Assembly: GCA_013433145.1 (NCBI GenBank)
Contig: CM024176.1
Span: forward strand, 9,224,520-9,288,519
Length of the DNA: 64,000 bases
Source of the DNA: Ascaris suum
Taxonomy: Eukaryota; Nematoda; Chromadorea; Rhabditida; Ascarididae
Reading direction: 5' to 3'
The notes below the pieces were generated by a model. The model did no database searches. It was not told the origin of the DNA and saw only the letters and a list, made by a program, of their open reading frames with translations. A program made the position numbers and the translations under genes. Of this stretch, positions 36,494 through 53,298 are shown one piece after another; position 1 is the stretch's first letter, and each line of letters begins with the position of its first letter.

Positions 36494-38659
36494 GCGTATC
36501 TGTGTTATTAGTTAGCTAAATAATGTTGATGTGTTGATGTCGATGTTGCCGATCTCATGTATTGATTGATTAGGTTCATCATTTTCTGGAAATAATTCCA
36601 GAAAAGAAAAACCTATATTAGGCTGCTGTCATCATAATCTGGATAGAATTTAGCCTAGGCCGCTGAGATACGTATAAAAACTGTTAGGCCTTTTTTAAAG
36701 TTGAACCATACCAACTGTCGTATAGAATGCTTCACCTTATTCTTGAACGTTGTTCTTGAGCCTAACAAATTCTTCATTATACGATGAAGAATTTCATTTT
36801 TAAATTTCCACGAATATAACTTGGAAGATATCGGCATTATTATATCGGAGAATTGAAACTCGTCTGTTAATCGAAATTTTTGCAATGAATTTTTTTATCT
36901 CTATTATAAATTTGCATATGATGAACAACACCACATTTATATCATTCATTTATCGATTGATTGTTGTTCCGGCTTGTTTCAATTTGTTCGAAATATTCCA
37001 AGCTGAAATATCTCAAATATTTTCCAAGTTTTAGATATTCCAACTTTCTTCCAAGTTGAAATATCCTAAGTTTGTTGTTTTCAGTTTTTATGAAAAAAAA
37101 AAAGAATCTGCAAATGAAAAATTTTATAAAATGACTTCGAGAGTGTCATCTTAATAATATCATATATTTTTGATTATTTCCTTTTACAGGTATAATTTAA
37201 TATGCAACGATCGGAGATTCAAGACGATAAACAGTGAGCATTTTAATTGAATTATTTATTATTCTTAAAATAATACCATCCTTGAGATGATCAGTGGTGA
37301 TTTTAATTGCCCATTCGTCTCCCTCTCTCGATTCTCTCTCCTTGCATCCCTTCATCTTTGCGTTCTTCTCTTCCCCTTTCACCTCATCAGCATCACCTCG
37401 AAGAGGGGATGGGACATGGAAACGATCAAGTAAACAAGTTTTAGCGGACTCTTTGATGTAGATAAAAAAGACTTTTCCGAAGTTGTTTCTTTTATTACTC
37501 TCAAAATGCACAATAACATTGTTCTGAATGATGAAGAAAGTATTTTTGTGAGAATTTTCCGTTATTTACTTTATTTTTTTTTTTTTTAGTTTCTTCCTCA
37601 TTTTCCTCATAACATTGAAATAGTTTTTTTTTTTCATTTGGGACATAATTGTTTTCAAATCAATAGTGACTGCTTTCCAACATCCGCGCAGCAGTTGAAC
37701 TCGCTTGGGCGAGATCGAAAAATAGCGCATGTCGTGCTAATTTCACCATCACGCTTATCAAGTTTTCGGGATCGTCTTTTTTTTTTTCAGAGTGTTGGAT
37801 CTCTTGAAGTCACATTTGCTTTAAACTGGACTAATTTTGGTAGTTTTTTTAGTATGGTTTTCTATGGTAGATCTTTATTACTCGATGAGTGAAGAAGACT
37901 TTTGCGCTGTAAGTCTCGTTGTTACCTTGAAGTACATTTTATTATTACCTGATCATTTTCTTCCTACATCGTGAACTATAGCACCTGTACTTTTCGTTCA
38001 GTGAAGATACGGTGTAGTATTACCATCCTGGCGACTGTTATAGATCGAATTGATATAGATATATAACATTTACGTTTTTTTTTCGATGCAAGGTCATGCC
38101 TTTTGTCCTTTGTACTCTAAATTAGTAGAGATTTATGGTGTGAATGGAAATTGTTGGAGTAGGCTTAAATGGAGCGTTCATATAGCGTTCGATTTCGCCC
38201 AATAGGCCATTCATTTTGAATAATGCGCCCTTCCGAAACTTGCCGAAGAGGGAACACTTCCATCTTAATGAGATCCTGGGATAATCCATCCTCTCCCTTT
38301 TATTCTGAGGTAAAATACAGGAAGATGACTGGTCTTTATATATCTTGAAAATGAGATAATATTTTTCTTCATCGGAAAAAGTTGTTTTTTTTTGCAATTT
38401 CACCAGTTAATCTACTAACGAATTGAACGACCGGTCTATAAATGCTAGTTGAAAACTTAAAGACGGCTGGCCCATAGAGTTACATATCACGCGAATATCG
38501 GCAATTGATGCGTCATAGATTAAGAGTAACTGAGTAAGTAAGGAAGTCAGATCTGTAGGAAGCGGTAAATAAGGGCTATTCTTAGTTTAGTATTAATATT
38601 TAAAAGGGAGGAAAGATGCAAGCACATAGATAAAATTATTTGTATTCATTTCATTCAGG

Positions 38660-41600
38660 ATGCGAATTGATGCCATAATGGATGGGTATCGCAGTGGTTC
38701 AATCAATTCGTTGGCAGAACTTCGCGACACTATTGAGAGGGAGACGGGTGTCAATTACTCGGTTTCATATTGGCAAAGGAAGTTGCTCGGTGTAAGTGAT
38801 AGTATTTATAAGATTTACTCAAAAAGCACACATCACGTGATTTAAAAAAAAAAAAAAGAAATGACATCGGCATTCATGTTGTTTCTCTTTTGAACTGAAA
38901 TGTTCGCCATTCCCCATGGAAACTAATCACTTTTTATCTTTGAAATACAAATGGAGATTTCCTACTCTTATTTTCTTTACCGTTTCTAAAGAATGCGAAA
39001 TATAAGTGCTGAGATGTTGATTTGATGGTGCGATATCGGTATTGCGGACCGAAGAAGTCAGCATTAAACATCAGATGCAATGAAACGAACTCATTCTCTT
39101 TGGAACTTTTCATTCGGCTTCCTAATAATTCAGTTATATTTCTTTATAAATTTTAAATCTTGGAATATACTATGTTACAGACGAGACCTCAAGGAAGAAG
39201 AAGGAAAGAAAAAAAAAGCGATGAGGAGAGAGCCGAGAAGAGATTGCGGTATGTTCAGAGAAAATTTTATTCTCATTAATTTTCTTAGAAGTGCTATGTA
39301 AATAGAAAAAAAATTAAGGTGTGGGGTCGATGTTGTCATAATATATCTTGAATTACAGCTTACTTTGAAATAAACATACTTTAATAGAGATAGCTCATGA
39401 CTTACGAGACTTATAGATTCTCTCAATTTTTTTGGATGGAATTAGGAGGAGTGTTGCTCATGAGGATTCTTAGTATGAATTTTAATTCATCAGTTGTCGT
39501 TTCGAAGAAGTTCGCTGATAGTGAACAGCTTATCGAGTAATTTAGCTGCCATTATCGCTTTAGGGGGAGGGGAAGGGGAATTCCTGGTTCAAATGAATAT
39601 GGTCTTCACCTCGGGATACCTCGAGGTCATAGCATGAAACCTTCGATTTCGATGGGCGTAAACTTCGTTGAAAAAATTTCAATCAGTTTGAGTGTCGCAG
39701 GTGAAATTCACTTCGGAAGCAATGATGTGAAACGTTCACGGCAATAGCTGTATTTTACTTATTACACCTCTCAACTTTCTTTATGTTTTGTTGTTATCTC
39801 CGTAGAATTTTTTATTACTGGATGAGAGTGCAATGATATTGAAACTGTTAATAATTAGTAAGTGATTTAAAATGAATGTTTATTTGTTGTCACTTTTAAT
39901 ATTAATTTTCAGTTTATCTGAGAGCAGTATTCACGGCAGAACACATACGTTATCACGGAATCTCAAAGAGACAATATTAACCGTTGAAGAAGGTGAAGGA
40001 GTCCGTCAATATGCTCGGATGCACATTTCCGAGAATGGTCGCAAAGTCTACTATCGATGCAACAAATGTGTCAAGTTTTTACGGCGTGGAGCCGGCGGAA
40101 GAGCAGCGACAATAAAGACGGTCGATGGTGAAATATTTGGTGAGGCACATCCAACACATGTTGAAGGATGTGAATTAATGCGTAAAGAAGATGTTTTCGT
40201 TGCTGAAATTGTTCGAGAATGTCGTCGTGACGTACGAAGAGGCATCAAGACACCGCGCATGGCTCATACTGATGTAAGCTTTTAGGCCACTATCCCTTTT
40301 GTGGTCTCATTACGTAGTAGAATTTCGTGCTCAAAATTTTGTCTTTCATGATAAAGAACGCTGCTTATAAACATAGGCCATATAACTGTTGGCAAAGAAC
40401 CTTCAAAAGCGATGTGTTAATTATGCAAGCTCTTAATCCTTTCCTATCTTCCAACTATGTCTCACCTGATCCCACTCATTCCCTCACCCCCTCCCCCCCC
40501 CCTCACCACATCTAGCGCCGTTTGATGAAATTCGCACATATGGTTGAAATTCGGAGCAACATGCAAGGTGCCGAAAATGGTGTTGAAAAGAAGGGGAATG
40601 TTTTAGAAAATAAGAAAAGATGACTTTTCAATATGCAAAGGTTTTTCATGAATGGAACTTGCGGATATTGCCTTTACTTGTAAAAGAAGGGAGTACACTT
40701 CTCGACTGCAAGAGTCCAATCGAGCAAGGTTTATTTCATCGGATGTTACAGTCCAGTCAAAGAATCAATCCTGAGTGCTGTTAAGGTAGCGCTTCATCCC
40801 GGAGATCTTAAAAAGGCTAAATTTTCGTTGTTTTACCCAATGATGAGATATGACCGTTTGAGTATTTGCAGCCACAATCACCAATACATCTTCACTTTGC
40901 AGAAGAGAAACCACACATTCATACGCTTTAAAACACCTATAAACGGAAAATGAGGGTGGTATCGTTAAGATAACGGTTTACTACAATAAATGCTATGCAA
41001 GTTTTTACAAGCAATACGCATCGCATATAATCAATAGATCGCGCCGAATCAGATTTACTTGATATATGATAGATTGCTGGTTACAACTATATCATATTTT
41101 CCTGTTGAATTGAAATGAGTACGATCTCGAAAGCCGTGGAAATTCTGTGAAAAAAATATCAAACGGGATGGCAAGAAAATTTTTAAAAATAACCTCAAAT
41201 GTATCGACGAGGTTTAAGGCGAAAATTCGAAGCCGTTGCCGATAATTGGGCTGCCCAAGAAATTTTTTTTGAAAGGTATCCCAACAGAGCGATTTTCCTT
41301 CCACCTTTCCCGATCATCCCGATATCATTTCCAGCGGATCGCCAGGTTTATCAATGTCTTTTTGGATAATGGTATGCTACAAGAGCATGTCAATAATTTT
41401 CTGCGCAGCTGCAGATCAAGCTGCAAGAAGGGGGTTTTGCAGCTGGTTCAGTGGATCCTCATATACGTTGAGGGTTTTGGAATATTTTGCCGTATTAATT
41501 GATTGTCACAATCATTCAAATCAGATCAATTTCTGAGTTCTTAAGTGGGAACCTATCAAGAAATCAGGTACTACAATTCAATATGCAAAACTTTGGAATG

Positions 41601-43327
41601 TGATAAGGTTGGTTATTGAAGGCATAAAACTTATGTGAAACTGACGCTATTATTTTTACTACGGTGGAGCCATTCTTTTTTCTTTATGAACTTAGGGGTT
41701 GGAATTTAATCGAGCTAGAAGCTTATACTCGGCCATTTGCGCCAGCAGAGAGTTCCGCTATGGTGCATCGTTAACGCCTACCTATTATTCTAAAGTGTTC
41801 AGTAATGCAGACTGCATGAATGCGAGAGTAACTTACTCGTGCGATGTTATTGCAGGGATTTGTGAGGGTGTTGAGCGCAGAAAGCGAGTTAAGTAAAGCA
41901 GACAGATCGGGTGATGGACAGGGCTTTATGGTGCGTTACCCACGTTGGGAGTCGATAAAGCGCTCCCTCAATAGACACCGCAGACTCAGCACCATTCGTG
42001 CCACAAGCCCATTCGAACTTCCCGAACAATATGACGAAACGTCGATGGTTACTACTTCAAGTGAAAGGTCAGTCTTGGTGGGTTGATGCTTTCCATAGTA
42101 TAACTTTGCTTTAACTGTTTTAGAGAATGTAGGACTGAAGCATTAAGCTGGAGACTTGAGAGCCGATAGTTTTCACCATGTTTGCCATCAGGAGCAGCAT
42201 TAATTATGTCATCTTAAAGGCCAACTTGCCCACAATAAGCATAGATGTGCAGTAGCGGAATGATGGAATGTCGAATTTAATCCAATTAAAAACGTTTTAA
42301 ATCTTTGAAATTATCATAATCAAAAATCAGAACAGATTTATAGCCTGGCCGTGAGAAATTAGAGTGCGGCAAAACTGCTCGAACTTTTTTTCGAATTTCA
42401 CCGATCATTCAAGAACTTTGTGTGGATTGACGTTTCGAGAAAGTTCCTTGTTTTATTGTAATGAAGAGAGTAACTCAACGAGGACTCATGGATGTATCAT
42501 GAAATTTCGCTTCCATATATGCTAACGGGATTGCGAACGAATGAATTGGCACCAACGTGACGGACTTACGCCGTTAACATGAGCCAACTGTAGAGATTTG
42601 GCAGATTCAGATAGACTAAGTGTAATGACACAAGATGAATGCTTGTGGGATTTATGTTGTACTGCGTTTTATTATTGCATTTATTGCGTTAGAAAAATTT
42701 TCTATGATTTTTATGAGTGATTATGCTGAGATGAAAGCGATGTGTTAGATTTTCAGGTCTACGACTCCCGAGAAACATGAAAAGTTGATATATTTATGGA
42801 AACAGAACTCACATCATTCATGGGATTCCGCAAATAGAGCCGAATATTCTCGAAATGTCGTAGACAATGAGCCGAAATCCAGGTTTTGGTATGTCCAAGT
42901 TTTTTTTTTAAAGGATTTTATTTGTTTATTCGAACACGTGCTTATTTTTTACTTGCGTTTTTTACTTTTAGAGGTTCAGCACTTCACAGCGATCATGTTG
43001 GACTTGTCAGACGATCACAGCTCGAGTGCTACGCCAATTGTTTCTGATTGCCATTCGATTGTTTTTATCATTGATGTTATTTTTGCAGCAGCGAAGCTAT
43101 ATTATAGCCATGGATATTCTCGGTTGGGAAGCGTTGTATCATTAAAATTGGTACTTTTTTTCATGTAGTTCAAGCGATCAGAGCCACCAAAACTGAAGGT
43201 GAATTGCGGTTGCACTCATTTGCTCACATCAGTGTCATTTCCTGATATCGGGCACCGTGCCTATGGTGAAATAAATTTGAAGTCTGAAGTTGAAGTTCTT
43301 TGGCATTTGTTCGTGGAATCAGCCTAA
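38660..43327 (+). CDS. FLYWCH-like zinc-binding protein (transposon-related module)
   Basis: Exons 38660-38791, 39181-39248 and 39913-40273 are in phase. They encode an N-terminal helical segment (NSLAELRDTIERETGVNYSV), a basic linker (PQGRRRKEKKSDEE) and a zinc-binding-like module: YYRCNKCVKF, then GEIFGEAHPTHVEGC, that is CX2C-X26-HX2HX3C, followed by VRECRRDVRRGIKTPRMAHT. Two 3' continuations fit phase 0. Exon 40516-40623 ends in TGA and gives 222 residues. Alternatively, downstream exons from 41696 or 41858 (FMVRYPRWESIKRSLNRHRR), through 42757-42890 (beginning STTPEKHEKLIYLWKQNSHH), may run to a stop near 43327. The RYPRW...RHRR segment resembles what follows such modules in mutator-like transposase-derived proteins. 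A TTTCATTCAG lies just before the ATG, suiting cis- or trans-splicing. Exons 2-3 are good; the 3' end is unresolved. Confidence 0.55.
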
Positions 43328-43412
43328 GTTGTCGTAGGAAATTTCTGTTTCATCCACGAAAGCTCTCGAAATGTGTATTTTCAGTGGCTTCACCTCAGAT
43401 TTGGGTAAGCCG

Positions 43413-46400
43413 ATGACATCGAGCACATATGACGAGGAATTCCTCAGTGACGTGCGCATCAACGAGAATCCTCTCGGTTTCCCTTACGATCACCTCGTAC
43501 AGATCACATTCAGACGAGTTCGTTTATTAACTTTTCCATATAGAGCATTTAAAAGAAAAGTTATGTGTTGATTAACGCGAAGTTTTGCTGGTCATTCATT
43601 AGATGACCCTCTAATGGTCATCATCAGCGCAGACGCTCTGAAAGCCCCTTCCTCTTTCCCCCATCCTCTTCTCCTGTATTCAAATTCTACGCAACGGTGC
43701 CCCTCTGGCATTGGGCTCATTGATCGCAAAATCGCATCATCTTTTTTTATTTCCATTTATTTTCTTCTAGTTCGTCGTATTCTTAACTTTATGTTCGGTA
43801 TCTTAGAGGAATATTTGCTCGTTCTAGTGATTTTTGCCGCATTTTTTTCTTTTCTGGTCATAATTTCGCGTCTTCAATCCCATATATGACTCTACGCAAC
43901 CATTTTTCTGCTTTATGCGCTTATTGGAAGTTTGCTGCGAACAAATTCATAGTACCATCGTGGCTATTTGTATGTATTTGTTGATTTATCCATATGTCCA
44001 GTTTTATCAATTCGCCGGTCAAGAGTGCCACTTTGAGTTAATTTGACGGATATAGCCCATTGCCTAAGTGTGGCTCTCAATCTGGTTTCGATTAGCCTTC
44101 TCGTTAACACTTTTTTTCGCAAATGTTTTCCTTAGAATAGGCAGGCTTGCCGTTGTGCCGATCAATTATACTGTTAAATAGAATATTTCTTATTTTGATG
44201 GCAGTTTATTTCGCCTTTTACAATTGTGTGCTATCAAGTTGCAACTTCATCCTTTAAAGACAGATTTAGTTGCTCGTCAGTACGCTGCTATCGATAAGCT
44301 TAGTTCTTTAAGGAGTCAACGTTTAAATATTGTAAAGCATATTTACAAATCCTTGAACTTCGGAACTCTTAAATGCGTTTTATTTACAAATCCGTGATCT
44401 TGAGAACCCTTAGATGTCTATAACGTTTGATAAGGAAAGCATATAATCAAGGTTTTACGAATTTGCGAAATATTTTCAGACTAAAGTATAGAGGATCCAC
44501 TTTTCGAACCGTTTTTAGTAAGTGATACTTAGCGATTATCATGAAACAATTGCGAAAAGTATTTAACTATGAAGGATTGAATTGTTTTTATGTGTTCTTG
44601 CCATAAATCAACGAAGGTGGTCATGGGTTCTCATCGATCATAAAGTAAGAGATAAATGCATTTTTGGCATTTGCTTTGAGAGATGCGTTACCCCTTCGCC
44701 AAGGTAGAGTTATGGCGCGTTATTATATAAGTATACTTTCACTAAAGTATTGAAGGGCGATGAGGAGATGAAATGGGATATGGCATTGCGACCGGACAGT
44801 GTTGCCTGTATACTCTTCCATCGAGACATGGATTCACTTCTGTTCATAAAGCAATTCCGGCCAGGTACGGTGTTTCTGATGTTATCACCGACTTCGGATA
44901 GTTGAGATATGGAGAAAATTATATTGCAATAAACTGTTATTCGTTTTTTCACTTTCCATGGGGAGGAAAACTTTTTAGTTTATGTTTATGTTTAGATCGT
45001 TTATGAGTGCTGATGGCCTTGCCTCCTTATCTTTTTTGTCTCTTCCAACATCTAGGTTTAGTAACAACAAAGAACCAGACAGAAGAAGGAGTGCACCTTC
45101 GGATTTTGAAGACCTAGCTTGCGGTTTACCCGTTGTAAAGCGCGTAAATTGTAAGCCACATCTTCACTCGAATGTTGCAACCTTAGTTGGAATTCCGTCA
45201 AACGAGACTAATAGTTTGCGAAGTTTTGTAATGTTTGGAAAAAATGAACTAAAATGCGGTGTGTGAAGTATCTATATGAGAAGTGGATCGTTATGAAAAT
45301 TCCAACTGCAAATATGGTTATGGAAACCAACTGAGAACCTCATTTGGAACCGGAAACTCTTCATAAACCTCCAACCTCGTTTATAGTTACAAAATGAGTT
45401 ATGACCACGGTTTCCAAGTGAAACTTAATAAGCGCCCTATTTCGTACATATGTCTTGCTATCGTTTTTTCTCTGCCAGTTCTGTTCTTTTTATGCTTTCG
45501 CCTTAGCGTCGAATATGTTAAAAAACAACTCCTCATCGTTTCGTCTTAGTGGGACAAGTGGGGAGTAACGTTGCGATGTGTATAAGTGATAGAAATAGAG
45601 GTTGCACAGTGTATATAAAATTTTTGCACTTATGGAAAACAAAGAGGAGACAAAGTAAATCTTTTCCTGATATCCCTGAATATTTGTGTATGTCGATTTA
45701 TAATGAGCTTGTTGTAAATGGGGTGCTCAAATGATACTCTTGAAGATTTACTTATTACTTTTTAAATATCGATGCGTCTTATATTACTAAAAGTTAGTGA
45801 GTTAGAGCTAAATTGAACAGTAGTGATGGTTTGTGTTGAAATGTTGAATGCGTCTTTAATAGAAGAATATACTGAACATATTGATGCGACTGATGCGCCA
45901 TTTGGAATGATAACATGTCACAGACGCCAGCAGAGCTAATCTTTACAACCTACGTTTATGCGCAACAACTTTTGTTCTTTTGTGGAGTAATGAAATGGTT
46001 CGAATCCCGACGTTACTAATTGGAGTTAATAAAGCAAGTAATACTCTACTCGTCTTTTGCTTATCTCACCTGTTCTTGGCATCAGTAGAAAGTAAGGATA
46101 TTCATTTGCAGCAGTGTTCGTATCAACAGTGCGTAGAATGGCCGAGAATCGCGGTAAGGCGAATGCAGATATCGACTGGAATAAATACCCGATCAGTATT
46201 GGGGAAACAGTTGAGCTATGTGCAGGTCCAATCGATAAACCCAATCTGAGTGAGTTCGCACACATGCGTGAGGAAATTATCGAACAGTGTGGCTATGATG
46301 TGAAGGAATGCGATATCACATTCCTCAAAAAGTTTATGTAAGTTTTGATAGGGCTTGATAAATGTCTCAAAATTAGGAGTGGTGTAGCCGATAGAATGAT

Positions 46401-48101
46401 TCCGGGGTATTGTTGAGGACGTCCTCTCATATCGCAACACTTCCATATCACAAGGCGTAATATTTTATCTCTTAGGTTCATTTGCTGTTTCTGATAAGTT
46501 TACAACACTTCTTAGTGGCATTGGGCTTGATGATAATAATGCAAACTTTTACGGCCTTAAGGTGCTGTTAAGCTCTCAATATCATTGCTTTCTTATTCCT
46601 CAGGAATGTTCGCAAGAAACATCATCGAAATATCCGTTTATAAAAGCTTTTCCTTCTTATCTATTTCGCCGTATTGCTTTATCTCGTTTCATCCCATTTT
46701 TTTTTTTTTTTTTTTTGCGTTTTTTAAACAACGTCAGCAATTCAGTGAAAAATTTATAGCTATAGTAAATGCCAAAATGATTTACCGAAGTTTAATATTT
46801 CAAATAAATTCCGTTGATTTTCTCTGCAAACTTTTATCTTCTGGAATGGAAACGCTTCAAACATAAGAGCCATTAATGATCCAGTTGAATGTTCAATGGA
46901 GTTTTTTTTTTCACTTTCCCTCCAGGTTACTCAGTAGTCGAGCCATCAGCAGATGAATGCGAATTAAATATGCTGTGCATTGAGTCGTGAAACGTGGCCA
47001 AGCTATTTCCCCACTTAAAGAAGGAAAGCTCATACTTCCACTGTTTAATATAGCTTGATGTAGTAAAGGTCACGCCTCCTCTTGAATGCAAAAAGGTCAC
47101 GTCACTACCTTGTTGGGAAGGTCACGCTGCTTCCGTATTTCGTGTCGAGAAGGTCTCAACGTAGAATTTATTGTGTAGGCTGAAAGATTTCGTTATTCAT
47201 TTAATAACAACGTTGGCACCATCGCTTCAACGTGTTTCATGGTTTAATTTGCATGGACATGATCATTTCCAGCTGACGTTTCGGCTTCCTTCTGCAGTTT
47301 TCTTAGCGACTTTCATTTTTTATTTCATTTTTTGTGGTAATTTTTGGTTCCTAATTCGGCGATTTTTCATTCCGGTTTGCACTTCTTCTGGTTTTCAGTA
47401 CGGGATTAGGTACATCGGGTGCACACCAGCTCCTTTTCTATGCGGAAATTGACGAAACGATGAGAATTGACGAAGATGATGACACTCGCAGCGGACACAC
47501 TCAAAAGGTTCGTCGAATTTGTTGAAAGAAATACATGAAGCGATTGCATGAAAAACGAATTAGAGCTGGATAGTTCTGTTCCATTATCGCTGAATGTGAA
47601 TAGGATTCCGAAGAGCCAAGCTACGTGATATGATATGGGTTGCTTTTTGCATAGGCTGATGGTTATAATGGAGTTAGTGGTAGTTAAGGTAATCATTCAC
47701 CGAGAGATTCTTTTTGGTCTATGAAACGACGGCTGGGACTCTTAGATGTTTTTTTTTGATAATATTTAAATGGGGACGATGGCCACCTATTTGAAGAAAT
47801 TTTTGTAACACTTGTGTGAAGGTATTTAGAGTAAATTTTTAAAAATTTTTTAGTATGTTTGACGTTTGATTATTGTCACCTTATTGGCTTGTTATAAATA
47901 TCACTCTCCTTAGATGAGCTGAACTTTTCTTTATGGTATTTAATTAGTCTACTTCAATTCATTTCGTTGTCGTGAGGAAATTATTTGCAGGTATTTATGA
48001 CGCTACCAGAAGCAGAAAATTATTGCGAACAAAAAGACGTGCCGAGTGCTCCTAGTCTACTTTATGGTTTGCAATGGTTTTTCAACCAATTGAAGCAGTG
48101 A
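43413..48101 (+). CDS. NUDT14: NUDT14-like Nudix hydrolase (UDP-sugar diphosphatase), copy 1
   Basis: Human NUDT14 splits UDP-glucose into glucose-1-phosphate and UMP. Exons 43413-43517, 44756-44864, 46112-46337, 47399-47507 and 47991-48101 are in phase and give 219 residues (human 222). Landmarks: FPYDHLVQITFRR, MKWDMALRPDSV, LLFIKQFRPAVF, ETVELCAGPIDKPNLSEF, the Nudix helix REEIIEQCGYDV, TGLGTSGAHQLLFYAEI, and the end LLYGLQWFFNQLKQ. The second Glu of the Nudix EE pair, equivalent to a metal ligand in MutT, is Gln here (codon 46285-46287). An acceptor-like TTTTCAG lies about 30 bp before the ATG. The preceding same-strand gene may end only 85 bp upstream. Intact as a gene; whether it is still an active hydrolase is doubtful. 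Confidence 0.88.
44865..46111 (+). other. Intron 2 of NUDT14 copy 1
   Basis: 1.25 kb with donor GTACGG and acceptor ATTTGCAG. It contains two open stretches (44982-45266 and 45549-45734) that I do not recognise and that have no counterpart in copy 2. Its last 50 bp match the corresponding intron end of copy 2. Confidence 0.5.
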
Positions 48102-49159
48102 TCGCTTCCGAATTTTTCCACCAGTTGAAGCGGTGATCAAATTTGAGGTTGTTTTATTCCATCGGAAATTGTTTTATTGTTGTTTCATTCGGTTTTCCTT
48201 CTATAAACAATTCGTTGAATTGTTTCTTGCATACATTCTATAGCAGCTGCTTTTTTTTGATTGCAAATGAAGTTCCAGTGGAATAGTGGAATAAATTTCG
48301 AGTGCAATTCTGATTAAGAACGCTGTTGTTAGAGTAGGCTGAATCAGCAACTACTTAACTGCTTCGCTCATAATCGCGTCGATTATTTGTCGAATGCCGA
48401 AAAATTTATGTTCGCATCAGTGTTGCATGGGTTTTTTTCTTGAGGAGGATTTACAGGAAGTATATAAAACAAAGTGATCCCGAACGACATTATAATCCAA
48501 AAGACTCGAGTTAGAGACTTTGATTTTCGAAACTTTTCCCCCCATCTCACATTATTAGCTTACGTCGAGACATTCACGAACTTTTTTTTGCGTGGTCTAT
48601 GTGCTCTCAAATTGCCCAGAAAGGTTAATTGTTGTTTTTGAACGTACTCATCATCACACATCGACAAATCCTGCTTGCACTCTGCACATCAGTAGGAGCA
48701 TCGATAGTTGTGTTTTGCAGGAAGTTTCAAACGTTACAACTCGAGGATAGCGCGTCATGAAGCGGAAAAAAACCGCTGTTTTCTGGGGTTCTTTATGCTA
48801 ATCCTAATCGAATAAATTCGTGCTCTTTAGAGAGTTCACAAAATTTTTCTGTCACTCATTCACTTCAAAACAAGCCTAGTTCGCTCATATTTAGGCACCA
48901 ATTACAGTACTGAAAGCTTGCGACGCCTTCGGCGGTAGAGCATTAGTAGATGTTCAGAGAGCCACGGCGAAGCTCTGGATAGTTGCGATGTTGGTGTCGA
49001 GACACGACAGTAACACCGAAACGAGAAATGCATCATGCGAAACTACCACTTTTGTTGCCGAAGAAATATTATTGAATAGTTGCCGCAATGTCGTTTAAAT
49101 GCTTTATATGCAGAAAAGAATCTGAAGTGAATAATGACAGAACATCAAATTCGAATTGA
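48102..49159. other. Spacer between convergent NUDT14 copies
   Basis: 1.06 kb between the two stop codons, so it holds both 3' UTRs. No gene or obvious repeat. It is the centre of the inverted duplication. Confidence 0.6.
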
Positions 49160-52100
49160 CTACTTGTTCCGTTCATTGAAGAACCACTGTAGGCCATAAA
49201 GAAGACCAGGTGCACTTAGCACCTCTTTCTGTTCGCAGTAGCGCTTTGCCTCAGGTAGTGTCATAAATATCTGCAAGTACACTATTCTTATAACGAAGTG
49301 TCGTAGCCTAAACATATAACAGATTGGAACGAATCACTACAAAATGACGATCTGTATCTTCGACACTGCTTATAAATTACTATCGGGTTGATGTCAGGTT
49401 CTCAAGAATTTCTTTGCTCACTAGAAACGGATTGACCATTAATTTCTAGGAAGAAAAATCACAGTTTACCAGTGTTTTACAAGCTATCGATATTGAAATT
49501 TCTGTTTTGTTTATTAAAGCTAATAAGTAGTAGCCGATTCAAGGCTGGAAATCTCCAATGGACTTAAGACAGTAATGAAGGCAAAAAATTTGCAACAGTC
49601 AGGGACTTAAATAAGCCAGAAAGATAAAGCGTATATTGCGTGTATTTATGGCGCTGGTTTAGTTCTGTTCACCCGAAACTTCACAAAAAGAAGAGGGGAC
49701 ACTTTTCTCTTCTTTGGATGCCATCCTGAGCAGGCTGTCCCACAGCAGTATTTTGAGGTTCCTTTGGCCTTCGCTCTATGCAAATGTCTTTCAAAAGGAT
49801 TCAAAGAGTTGTTGCCAACGTCGGTGATGCAAAAAGGTACACGCAGATTGTTCACTATTCAGCTAATTACCGACTAGAGCGCCACGATCTCCTTCTATCG
49901 GAAACAGTGTCTCAGCTCCGGAAGTGTCGAAAAATGGTTCCTTCTGCACACTGACTTTTTTCTATTTCACTATCTCTTGCATCTGTACCATGCAATTCTT
50001 CCTATGAGAAACTGCATTTATAGGTAGAAATGTTGATCTTAGCTAGCCGGAACCATTATGTTAAATTTCGCGAACAGCTGTTCATTTTGCAGATTGCCTC
50101 TTTGCAAGTTGAATAACTGCCACGTAGGAAACTACCGATAACCTTTGATAGCATTTTATTAAGGCAATCCTCAGAAAATGGTGACAGCTCTCTTATCTGC
50201 TTGTTTTATTATAAGCCTAATCGCGTCAGCTGTTGATCTGACAGCCGATTTCCTCTATAGTATTTAATATCAAATATTTTATGAATCTAAACAAACTTTT
50301 TGAATGCGTTCGTTATCGGTGCCACCTCCTTCGCCTACTTTCATCGTCTCGTCAATCTCTGCATAGAAAAGATATTGTTGTGAACCCGATGCGCCAATCC
50401 CTGTGCTGTTTATACAAAAAATTCAGTTGGTCCTTTAAATGAAAATCTCTAAATGAAAAAAACGAACTTAAAATCTACCTATTTCATTATAGAGCTCGTC
50501 GATTTAACCATATCATTGAAAAAAATTTTATTAGAGTACACTCATAGATCACTACGCCCTTAACATCCTTTGCAAATTCCTCGCGTCGATTCAACCATCG
50601 AGAAGTGTTACCGACTTTTATCGTCTCATTTAAACCCTTCAAACCTTTAGATCTGCCATGTCCTTAAAACGTTTCGATAAATGTGGCATCATTAATTCTT
50701 ATAAATTAAACACATAAGTAGGCCGCTGTTGAGGAGGTTGACGGTTAAAGATTTCTGAATCAAGCAACGGAAAATTCAAGAAATATTCGTTTCGCTGTGG
50801 TTCTGGGAAGGATCCGTGGGAGAATGCAACACACGAAGAGTATTACCTTAGACAAAGTCAGGTTTAAGAATCTGTGTAAAGCATGAAGTGCGCTCAAAGA
50901 TGGCGATGTTGGACAAAGTTCGGACGAAAGAGTGGTCGAAAGCAATAGAATGGTGAAGAAAGTTGATTGAACCATTGGGTGGGATGAATGAATAGCTAAA
51001 ATAAAGCGGAATCGAGGGCATACCACATCATCTTAAGCTTCGTATACCAAAGAGGACATCGTTTGCGTTGATCAACTCGGATCAAAGCTTACATAAACTT
51101 TTTGAGAAGTGTAATATCGCATTCCTTCACGTCATAGCCACATTCCTCGATGATTTCCTCACGCATATGTGCAACCTCGCTCAGGTTAGGTTTATCGATT
51201 AGACCTGCGCATAGCTCAATCGTTTCTCCAATACTGATCGGGTATTTTGACCAATCGATATCCGCATTCTCTTTGCCACGATTTTCGGCCATTTTGCGGA
51301 CTATCGATACAAACACTGCTGCAGTGAATGCCCTTATTTTTATTGATGCCAAGAACAGGTGAAATAAAGAAAACGTAAATGCCAAATCACCAAATTTGGA
51401 GATCCTAGCGCCATTTGACCATCCCTCAAAAGAATGGAATCCATTGAGGCTATACGATTAGGTATAAGGAATAGCCTCGCACAATTCTGTAATTAAAAGT
51501 ATTCAAACCATCCCAACTGGTACTTGAATATGTGCAATGCATTTATGCACCAACCGCCGCATTAGCGACAAATCGATTTTTTTCAGCCTTACCCTACTAA
51601 ACTTAAGGGAGGAGAGGTTGGAGAGGGAAGGGGGAAAGGAATCAGTAGACGTCACGTGACAAAAAATATTTCTTTGAGCTGCAATGCCAAAAAGTGCAAG
51701 CAACAAGAAGCATTTGTATTTCACTATTGCATAGTATTCCGATGGCTGCAATAATCAATCACTATACATCTTCAACCTATTTGTCAAACTGTGCACTCTA
51801 TTCTGGAGGCATATATATGATGTCATCGTCAAATTAGATACGAACAAAGCTTTAATTTCAGGAGAACTTTCGAAATTGAATAAGCAAAATAAAACGTCCA
51901 ACTCTGTATAAACTTTGATGCATGAGAATGGATTAGATTAGTACTCAAACAAGCATTTACATAGAGACAGTGAAAACTTGTTCTCGTAATTGATCAAAGG
52001 ATTCAGCATCTATATTTCAAGGATTGATCACCGTTGCTTATGTTATTGAAGCTCTTACTTGAACAAAACGAACAGATATCCTTGATATATTACGCGTGTT

Positions 52101-53298
52101 TTCGAATATACTTTTTATTGCCTAGTTGGTGAGCAGCACTTTATTCACTTTGCACTTATTATAACGCTATTTTTCCTCTTTCTAAAAAAATAAATTCTCT
52201 AAATCGTATACATAAATGTAGCCCCCTACCAACACCACTCTTTAAAACGATTCTGCTCAAATGGAAGAAAGAGGAGGGGGATGGAGATGGTACAAAATAT
52301 GCGAGATGATAGAAAAAAAAATGATTTCCTCCTATAACTAAACATAATTTCAATCTATCGTGGAATATAATCGTTTCCAGATGAAATCACAAGAGTATAA
52401 TAATACAACTGTTTTATCACAAGAGTATGATATAATACCTGGTCGGAACTGTTTTATCACAAGAGTATGATAATAATACCTGGTCGGAACTGTTTTATCA
52501 CAAGAGTATGATAATAATACCTGGGAACATCACAAGAGTATGATAATAATACCTGGTCGAACTGTTTTATCACAAGAGTATGATAATAATACAACTGTTT
52601 TACGAAGAGAGTGAATTCATACTTCGATGATAGAGCACACATGCAACGCTATCAGGACGTAATGCCATATCCCATTTCATCTTTCTATTACCCTTAAATT
52701 TTCAATCGTATTTGTCTTTTATTTATTCCACAAGATTACAATATATAGCTATATAGCAAGATAGCTCTATAAGAGCAACAACTCCAATTGACCGGATTGG
52801 CAATTATCATAGGTCTTCCAGCATTCTAGATGCCTTCCTTCATTTACAATTCCGCTCTTATAAGCATAAAGTAATTCGTCCAACTTATTATGCAATCAGC
52901 TTTTCTTGTGTAGATTTACAGTCATTAGCAAAAAAATACAACTAGAGACCAGAAATCGGGGAAATTTTACTGCTAGACATTTCGATAGATTCTAGAAACT
53001 GAAGTCTTATCAATTAGTGACATTTGAAGTTGATAATAAAAACAATACTTTATATGATTATGACTGATAAAGTAAGTACAAATAACAATCATCACTATAC
53101 GATTATCATTTGTCTTCAGGATCACCTTAATTACAATTTTATATTCTATTACTTCAATTAGTGGATAAGAATTATTCAACGAACCCGTTTAAAAGCGATT
53201 TGTGTCAGATGAACGTATGGTGAACTATGAAGATTCTCGTTGATATGTACATCGTTGAGGAATTCATCGTTTCCGCTCGACAGCACCGATTCATTCAT
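49160..53298 (-). pseudogene. NUDT14: NUDT14-like Nudix hydrolase, copy 2, exon 2 disrupted
   Basis: Mirror-image paralogue of the gene at 43413-48101. Exons: 53298-53185, exon 2 from 52692, 51318-51093, 50405-50297 and 49270-49160. Exons 3, 4 and 5 have exactly the lengths of copy 1 (226, 109, 111). It keeps the full Nudix EE pair (REEIIEECGYDV; GAA at 51143-51145), STGIGASGSQQYLFYAEI and LLYGLQWFFNERNK. Exon 2 starts normally (MKWDMALRPDSVACVLYHRS). It then lacks one base compared with copy 1, meets TAA at 52600-52602, and passes into a tandem array that has multiplied and partly deleted the donor. Skipping exon 2 does not restore phase. Predicted non-coding as assembled, though a collapse or error in the repeat could mislead. 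Confidence 0.85.
52386..52601 (-). repeat. Minisatellite built from an exon 2/intron 2 splice junction
   Basis: Six tandem units: 52386-52415, 52416-52455, 52456-52496, 52497-52528, 52529-52568 and 52569-52601. In gene sense a full unit reads AAAACAGTTCCGACCAG then GTATTATTATC and a short tail. The first part is the end of NUDT14 exon 2 (KQFRP) and the rest is the beginning of intron 2. Two units are essentially complete at the junction, two have small deletions in the exon part, and the two outer units have lost the CCGACCAG block. Confidence 0.95.

Follow-up and report, generated by a model that had tools for sequence, protein, structure and literature searches.

A NUDT14 copy with a degenerate catalytic site in Ascaris suum is probably the 3' part of a conserved gene encoding a zinc-binding domain

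We analysed a window of 64,000 nucleotides of the Ascaris suum genome (assembly GCA_013433145.1, contig CM024176.1, positions 9,224,520 to 9,288,519), focusing on two convergent NUDT14-like genes, copy 1 on the plus strand and copy 2 on the minus strand. A location near the chromosome end is ruled out, as the window lies about 2.2 Mb inside its 11,532,163-base contig. The two inverted copies, reported in a preliminary description of this DNA, were confirmed by exon mapping and by inverted repeats I1 to I6, the arms of which are 71-86% complementary over spans of 37-256 nt, beyond what is expected by chance. Copy 1 matches the NUDT14 structures (phmmer E 3.4e-27), its last five exons have GT-AG borders, and 219 aa are encoded from the proposed ATG at 43413. 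As originally described, its frame is intact and a Nudix-box Glu is missing, the box reading REEIIEQCGY, with a Gln codon (CAG, 46285-46287) replacing the second Glu of EE; copy 2 carries the full REEIIEECGY box together with a frameshifted exon 2 containing an in-frame TAA (52602-52600). The exon lengths, said to match throughout, do so for the last three of the five exons (226/226, 109/109, and 111/111), and differ for exon 1 (105 in copy 1 vs 114 in copy 2, counted from the proposed ATGs) and exon 2 (109 in copy 1 vs approximately 100 in the broken exon of copy 2), whereas the phases agree, as claimed, wherever they are readable in both copies. Searches of the genome (277.8 Mb, 97 contigs) recovered no third intact NUDT14 locus among the best-scoring candidates, with all matches to the exon 3 DNA query (2) and to the Parascaris NUDT14 protein P0001 (9) falling within the window. 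The inverted pair and both lesions are real, but the lesions are not equivalent: copy 1 is probably not a stand-alone gene but the tail of a larger conserved gene, in which a zinc-binding domain is joined to a disabled copy of the enzyme.

A profile search retrieved P0128, a 541-aa protein of Parascaris univalens, which has an RYYR-CCHC domain in its N-terminal part and shares 87% identity with copy 1 over the C-terminal part. The remainder of P0128 maps by tblastn to the plus strand immediately upstream of copy 1, where the splice borders fit unadjusted and yield ten exons encoding 530 aa; a further first exon (37202-37233) brings the product to 541 aa, the length of the Parascaris protein. 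The first exon of copy 1 has an upstream acceptor (exon start 43385) and joins six more exons in frame, back to 37202, all bounded by GT-AG splice sites. Given the Parascaris match and the upstream exons, the view of copy 1 as a stand-alone gene of five exons was set aside as the main model, although it persists in the operon alternative considered below. The coding exons of the proposed chimera are as follows.

37202-37233, plus strand: chimera coding exon 1, encoding MQRSEIQDDK plus CA, located with the N-terminal residues of Parascaris P0128; donor GTGAGC, in frame with exon 2
38659-38791, plus strand: chimera coding exon 2, 93% identical to P0128 residues 13-56; splice sites present
39181-39248, plus strand: chimera coding exon 3, basic linker; P0128 match and splice sites
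39913-40273, plus strand: chimera coding exon 4, with the RYYR-CCHC domain at 39944-40171; 98% identical to P0128 over 120 aa, with the PF23674 genome match at the same place
41856-42067, plus strand: chimera coding exon 5, P0128 match; paralogue locus L024 has a similar exon (37% identity) after its own RYYR-CCHC exon
42757-42888, plus strand: chimera coding exon 6, donor TG/GTATGT, joining exon 7 in phase 2
43385-43517, plus strand: chimera coding exon 7, with GFTSDLGKP upstream of the ATG at 43413, after which the NUDT14-like part begins
44756-44864, plus strand: chimera coding exon 8, with the WD ligand residues and KQFRP
46112-46337, plus strand: chimera coding exon 9, with the degenerate Nudix box (46225-46296) and the Gln codon (46285-46287)
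47399-47507, plus strand: chimera coding exon 10, with the GGG loop changed to DDD (47475-47483) and a conserved Glu changed to Gly (47493-47495)
47991-48101, plus strand: chimera coding exon 11 and stop, from exon mapping

The chimera aligns with P0128 without gaps, with 488 of 541 residues identical (90.2%) and no indel across 1626 coding bases; the identity amounts to 297/322 residues in the N-terminal part, 191/219 in the Nudix part, and 75/76 in the RYYR-CCHC domain. GFTSDLGKP, the nine residues preceding the ATG at 43413, is identical in Parascaris. With the 530-aa chimera as query, P0128 was the only full-length match among the matches listed, accompanied by one Caenorhabditis NUDT14. 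The RYYR-CCHC domain (PF23674) scores 87.7 bits against a curated cut-off of 27, and the only other Pfam match of the 530-aa chimera was below threshold (iHKD, 12.3 bits, cut-off 27). The chimera has a full domain of this family, including the CC..H.C residues (YYRCNKC...HPTHVEGC, aligned by eye with 7 paralogue loci), the zinc binding being taken from the domain name. Directly upstream of exon 1 (37202) lies an acceptor, TTTTACAG, which would be compatible with spliced-leader trans-splicing.

The NUDT14-like part of the chimera is placed within NUDT14 both by its sequence and by the phylogenetic tree, yet lacks an intact set of Nudix-box metal ligands (REUXEE). The preliminary description had suggested a comparison with orthologues, which answers the worry of an error in copy 1: Parascaris P0128 carries the same Gln, so that a read error is ruled out and the change from Glu must be old. 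Glu occupies alignment columns 126 and 130 in 31 of 31 presumed-active domains; column 130 is Gln in both Ascaris and Parascaris, and column 126 is in addition Lys in Parascaris (E126K). In DHNTPase, another Nudix enzyme, metal binding is ascribed to Glu56 and Glu60 within the motif and to Glu117, which lies outside it (PMC5526541). By their spacing, Glu56 and Glu60 would correspond to columns 126 and 130, of which Ascaris has lost the latter and Parascaris both, and position 179 presumably plays the part of Glu117 in NUDT14. The conserved GGG...E loop is likewise altered, to DDD or DDG and Gly. Altogether, copy 1 and/or P0128 differ at 11 of the 42 columns that are at least 90% conserved across the 31 presumed-active NUDT14 domains, with the changes concentrated in the Nudix box and the GGG-Glu loop (9/17 columns vs 2/25 elsewhere; Fisher p 0.003, with the classes drawn after the alignment had been seen); for copy 1 by itself the counts are 7/17 and 2/25. 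By contrast, the equivalents of Tyr17, Trp34, and Asp35, which hold an inhibitor in human NUDT14 (PMC11089510), are retained in both copy 1 and P0128.

The features of copy 2 are the following.

53185-53298, minus strand: copy 2 exon 1, 88% identical to Parascaris P0001 residues 3-34
52593-52692, minus strand: copy 2 exon 2, frameshifted, with the in-frame TAA at 52602-52600
52386-52609, minus strand: minisatellite with units of approximately 40 bp, beginning in copy 2 exon 2 and repeating the 3' end of the exon and the splice donor
51093-51318, minus strand: copy 2 exon 3, with the intact Nudix box; protein identical to A. lumbricoides P0011
50297-50405, minus strand: copy 2 exon 4, from exon mapping and the P0001 match
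49160-49270, minus strand: copy 2 exon 5 and stop, from exon mapping and the P0001 match

Judged from its sequence, copy 2 is a conserved, ordinary NUDT14 orthologue which, in this assembly, would be unable to make the whole enzyme: copy 2 and P0001 agree at 192 of 209 compared sites, the Nudix box and loop are complete, and the splice sites of exons 1, 3, 4, and 5 are kept, but exon 2 misses one base relative to copy 1, which shifts the frame into the TAA. Parascaris P0001 reads through exon 2 and does not share the lesion. The frameshift sits at the edge of the minisatellite, which is made from the splice-donor region of exon 2 itself. The array appears to have been born from the exon end and the donor, as it contains four copies of the donor CAG/GTATTAT and two units without those eight bases.

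A normal NUDT14 gene in Ascaris, with the exon 2 lesion an error of assembly or polishing beside the tandem array, would be compatible with the reading of copy 1 as part of a chimera, and we give this explanation a little less than even odds. Apart from the position of the frameshift, it is favoured by the intactness of the other exons, with exons 3-5 identical in protein to P0011 over 139 residues, and by the open exon 2 of P0001, among the 10 cluster members of which (the protein database being clustered at 90% identity) a full-length Ascaris protein may hide. The array units, compared by eye with the fullest unit, differ by deletions alone, although an automatic alignment of 5 units scored 5 indel events alongside 6 mismatches. 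Consensus errors do not typically take the form of deletions of 3-9 bases, which counts against the explanation, and the A. lumbricoides model P0011 has its start in exon 3, as would be expected if exon 2 could not be used in that species either; this is weak evidence, because the Toxocara model P0012 begins there as well. Alignment with P0128 requires no indel in the chimera, nor does alignment with P0001 in exons 1, 3, 4, and 5 of copy 2. As all coding exons apart from the broken one (approximately 2.2 kb in the two genes) can thus be aligned with Parascaris proteins indel-free, we lean slightly toward a real and recent loss. A rescue of copy 2 by skipping of exon 2 is ruled out by mismatched phases, and a cryptic donor of the right phase at offset 70 of this exon would drop KQFRP, so that a working enzyme seems unlikely. 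The idea that each copy keeps what the other lost holds only loosely: the losses of copy 1 (the Nudix-box Glu replaced by Gln, the greater part of the GGG loop, and a second conserved Glu) are old and common to Parascaris, whereas copy 2 has a single frameshift that is recent or artefactual. The symmetry of complementary lesions is not supported, as copy 2 is a conserved orthologue the lesion of which may come from the assembly.

In a 41-row tree, copy 1 and the C-terminal half of P0128 form one clade (100/100) within ascaridoid NUDT14. A single clade of the four Ascaris and Parascaris rows is not rejected (approximately unbiased test, p-AU 0.61); for a clade of copy 1, P0128, and copy 2 alone the p-AU is 0.111, the Toxocara row being partial. 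The duplication may have preceded or followed the Toxocara split. Degenerate NUDT14 domains also occur as the C-terminal domains of two-domain NUDT14 proteins from clade V nematodes (Caenorhabditis, Pristionchus, Auanema, Heterorhabditis, and Angiostrongylus), where a dead NUDT14 domain is likewise maintained alongside NUDT14; unlike in the chimera, it is fused to an active-looking domain and has a more degenerate box. These C-domains form a separate clade (100/99), and a common origin with copy 1 is rejected (p-AU 0.012), suggesting at least two separate origins of dead NUDT14 domains within the nematodes.

We analysed 8 two-domain proteins, namely P0017, P0123, P0124, P0127, P0129, P0135, and P0136 from named nematodes and P0137, a metagenome entry grouping with Caenorhabditis; five further long matches (P0121, P0131, P0170, P0196, and P0214) were left out. 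The N-domains keep the three Glu of the Nudix box (8/8), Leu or Ile107 (8/8), and Tyr or Phe17 (6/6 where the residue is present), and none of the 8 has Trp34. Conversely, all C-domains keep Trp34 and Asp35 (8/8), with Tyr17 (0/7) and each box Glu (0/8) lost. In the human NUDT14 dimer, the ligand is described as lying between Tyr17/Leu107 of one chain and Trp34/Asp35 of the other (PMC11089510). The complementary loss fits the pattern that one shared site per fused pseudo-dimer would be expected to leave, and the notion of each copy keeping what the other lost suits these proteins better than Ascaris. The loss of residues as expected of a two-subunit site is directly testable in Caenorhabditis. 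Among the long matches left out, P0121, from the beetle Abscondita terminalis (394 aa), has two NUDT14 domains whose Nudix boxes both look complete, in contrast to the nematode tandem proteins.

The two-domain pattern also illustrates a way in which copy 1 could remain of use to an active partner. As each site is formed by both subunits, a dead one can nevertheless supply Trp34 and Asp35 to the Nudix box of its partner, and the NUDT14 half of the chimera might then be kept for pairing with the active NUDT14 encoded by copy 2, with the RYYR-CCHC part localising the enzyme. The human dimer and the Tyr, Trp, and Asp retained in copy 1 speak for such a pairing, which also predicts the division of residues seen in the eight two-domain proteins. 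However, copy 2 looks broken in this assembly, and both copy 2 and the Parascaris NUDT14 keep their own Trp34 and need no partner, which counts against a pseudo-heterodimer; we consider it unlikely.

Improbable, in our judgement, is an operon in which the upstream gene, with the RYYR-CCHC domain, terminates within an extended exon 6 and copy 1 is a separate downstream cistron, trans-spliced at 43384, as implied by the ATG of the preliminary description. An AATAAA at 43270, approximately 115 bases before the TTTTCAG acceptor at 43384, would suit a boundary between two genes inside the chimera, read-through of exon 6 stays open as far as a stop ending at 43168, and trans-splicing and some polycistronic RNAs are described in Ascaris (PMC8065839). 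Against two cistrons, the donor TG/GTATGT and the phase link exon 6 to exon 7 in frame, and the Parascaris protein crosses the junction (SRFC/GFTSDLGKP). Moreover, Ascaris and Parascaris have the same nine residues ahead of the ATG, compared with 5 differences among the last 12 residues of exon 6.

The codons of copy 1 and copy 2 were compared by maximum likelihood (210 codons), giving a synonymous divergence (dS) of 1.11, a nonsynonymous divergence (dN) of 0.19, and a ratio (omega) of 0.174, which is to be taken as rough because dS is near saturation; the NG86 estimates were 0.17 for dN and 1.37 for dS. An omega of 0.5, roughly corresponding to one neutral copy, is rejected (twice the log-likelihood difference, 22.0), as is 1.0 (62.2). 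Nonetheless, change is faster in the Nudix half than in the active gene: of 58 differences at 209 sites, 37 are assigned to copy 1 and 7 to copy 2, with 14 unresolved. Copy 1 therefore looks like a constrained pseudoenzyme, changing faster and yet apparently under purifying selection. That copy 1 is a functionless, drifting relic, for which one could cite the faster change and the further catalytic-site losses in Parascaris (E126K and D113S), is already disfavoured by the omega estimate and by a frame of 541 codons open without an indel in two genera, and we regard it as very improbable.

With a probability of roughly two in three, copy 1 is the 3' part of a chimera of 11 coding exons (37202-48101, 541 aa), in which a dead Nudix module with a dimerising or ligand-binding role is carried on a zinc-binding protein. 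As far as sequence comparison goes, the chimera has an open spliced frame and an orthologue, has lost catalytic residues, and is under purifying selection. The suggestion that the plus-strand copy now acts as a binding or regulatory protein is thereby supported in a stronger form, that of a constrained pseudoenzyme domain very probably fused to an RYYR-CCHC domain. Several points weigh against this interpretation, in addition to the faster change of the Nudix half and the AATAAA at the junction. The only full-length relative listed, P0128, is a predicted protein and may be an automatic model, and no Ascaris protein for copy 1 or with this architecture was found among the matches listed (the best 120 in two of the searches), although in the clustered database, given 90.2% identity, an Ascaris entry may be hidden among the 6 members of the P0128 cluster. 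DNA binding by RYYR-CCHC is putative and not known as a defining property of the domain, and Leu107 of the human ligand pocket is Pro or Ala here. Finally, Pfam NUDIX (PF00293) is reached neither by copy 1 nor by P0001, and its genome scan listed 5 other places and neither copy; as the model also misses the Parascaris NUDT14, it appears to miss this branch, and the test says little. Copy 1 on its own had no Pfam match, and NCBIfam TIGR00052 stays below its cut-off (58 against 79.55). With Pfam NUDIX unmatched, the assignment of copy 1 rests on homology to NUDT14.

We propose that duplication and inversion placed a copy of the NUDT14 gene downstream of a gene of the RYYR-CCHC family, and that an acceptor at the 5' end of this copy was turned into an internal splice acceptor. 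The Nudix half would then have lost its metal site, a loss inherited in Ascaris and Parascaris, while remaining a selected domain that would dimerise and bind a nucleotide or nucleotide-sugar ligand uncleaved. Ligand binding would control or localise the attached zinc-binding, and perhaps nucleic-acid-binding, part, following the logic of NrtR. The gene may be transcribed as a fusion, and its product may be catalytically dead, dimerise, bind a ligand, and act in regulation.

Comparison with known systems places the chimera as follows. Its Nudix half is homologous to NUDT14, the UDP-glucose/ADP-sugar pyrophosphatase (PDB 8OTV, 9GEM, and 3Q91), of which it keeps Tyr17, Trp34, and Asp35, but it differs in having no last Nudix-box Glu, GGG loop, or further conserved Glu and in appearing fused to another domain; copy 2 has the box and the loop but a broken exon 2. 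Nudix domains of the DBC1 type are of another family and architecture than that of the chimera. The Nudix clan is described as including non-enzymatic members, among them regulators and DBC1, the non-catalytic Nudix domain of which is predicted to bind NAD metabolites (PMC5389931). Similar in logic is MsNrtR, a protein with a degenerate Nudix motif. According to PMC6800001, it no longer hydrolyses ADP-ribose, and 50 mM ADP-ribose releases it from DNA. In its motif, RQUXEKXDU, the two changed Glu positions are those also changed in Parascaris. In MsNrtR and the predicted chimera alike, a Nudix domain with lost catalytic residues is joined to another part, which in MsNrtR binds DNA. However, the C-terminal winged helix-turn-helix of NrtR has no counterpart in the chimera, the Nudix part of which forms the C-terminus and the zinc-type domain the N-terminal part. 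The chimera most likely combines a non-hydrolysing, ligand-binding or dimerising Nudix module with a zinc-binding, possibly DNA-binding protein, resembling NrtR in logic and not in ancestry. A more specific version, a eukaryotic counterpart of NrtR in ascaridid worms, would be a zinc-finger regulator with a dead NUDT14 domain sensing a nucleotide sugar or ADP-ribose, built beside and from the gene of the enzyme that destroys this ligand, with the enzyme gene itself now decaying in Ascaris; this version is conceivable, if on balance unlikely.

If correct, the interpretation would add a conserved animal architecture of a zinc-type domain and a catalytically dead NUDT14, found in no paper searched, and a clear example in which an enzyme gene was duplicated and inverted, was spliced onto another gene, and became a binding module, with the parent gene still adjoining. 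A literature search for RYYR-CCHC by name found no paper, and searches on NUDT14 in nematodes and Nudix in Ascaris gave nothing on this gene among the matches listed, most subscription papers lying outside the search. Paralogues of the RYYR-CCHC gene seem to be without a NUDT14 half, as NUDT14-like exons were found only in this window, and the nearest of 7 aligned paralogue loci are 50% identical (L024 and L020). The domain had no match in 14 prokaryote control genomes, and it is expanded in this genome, with 24 domain matches including that of the window (e.g., C14:7794911, C22:6099603, and C20:1717585).

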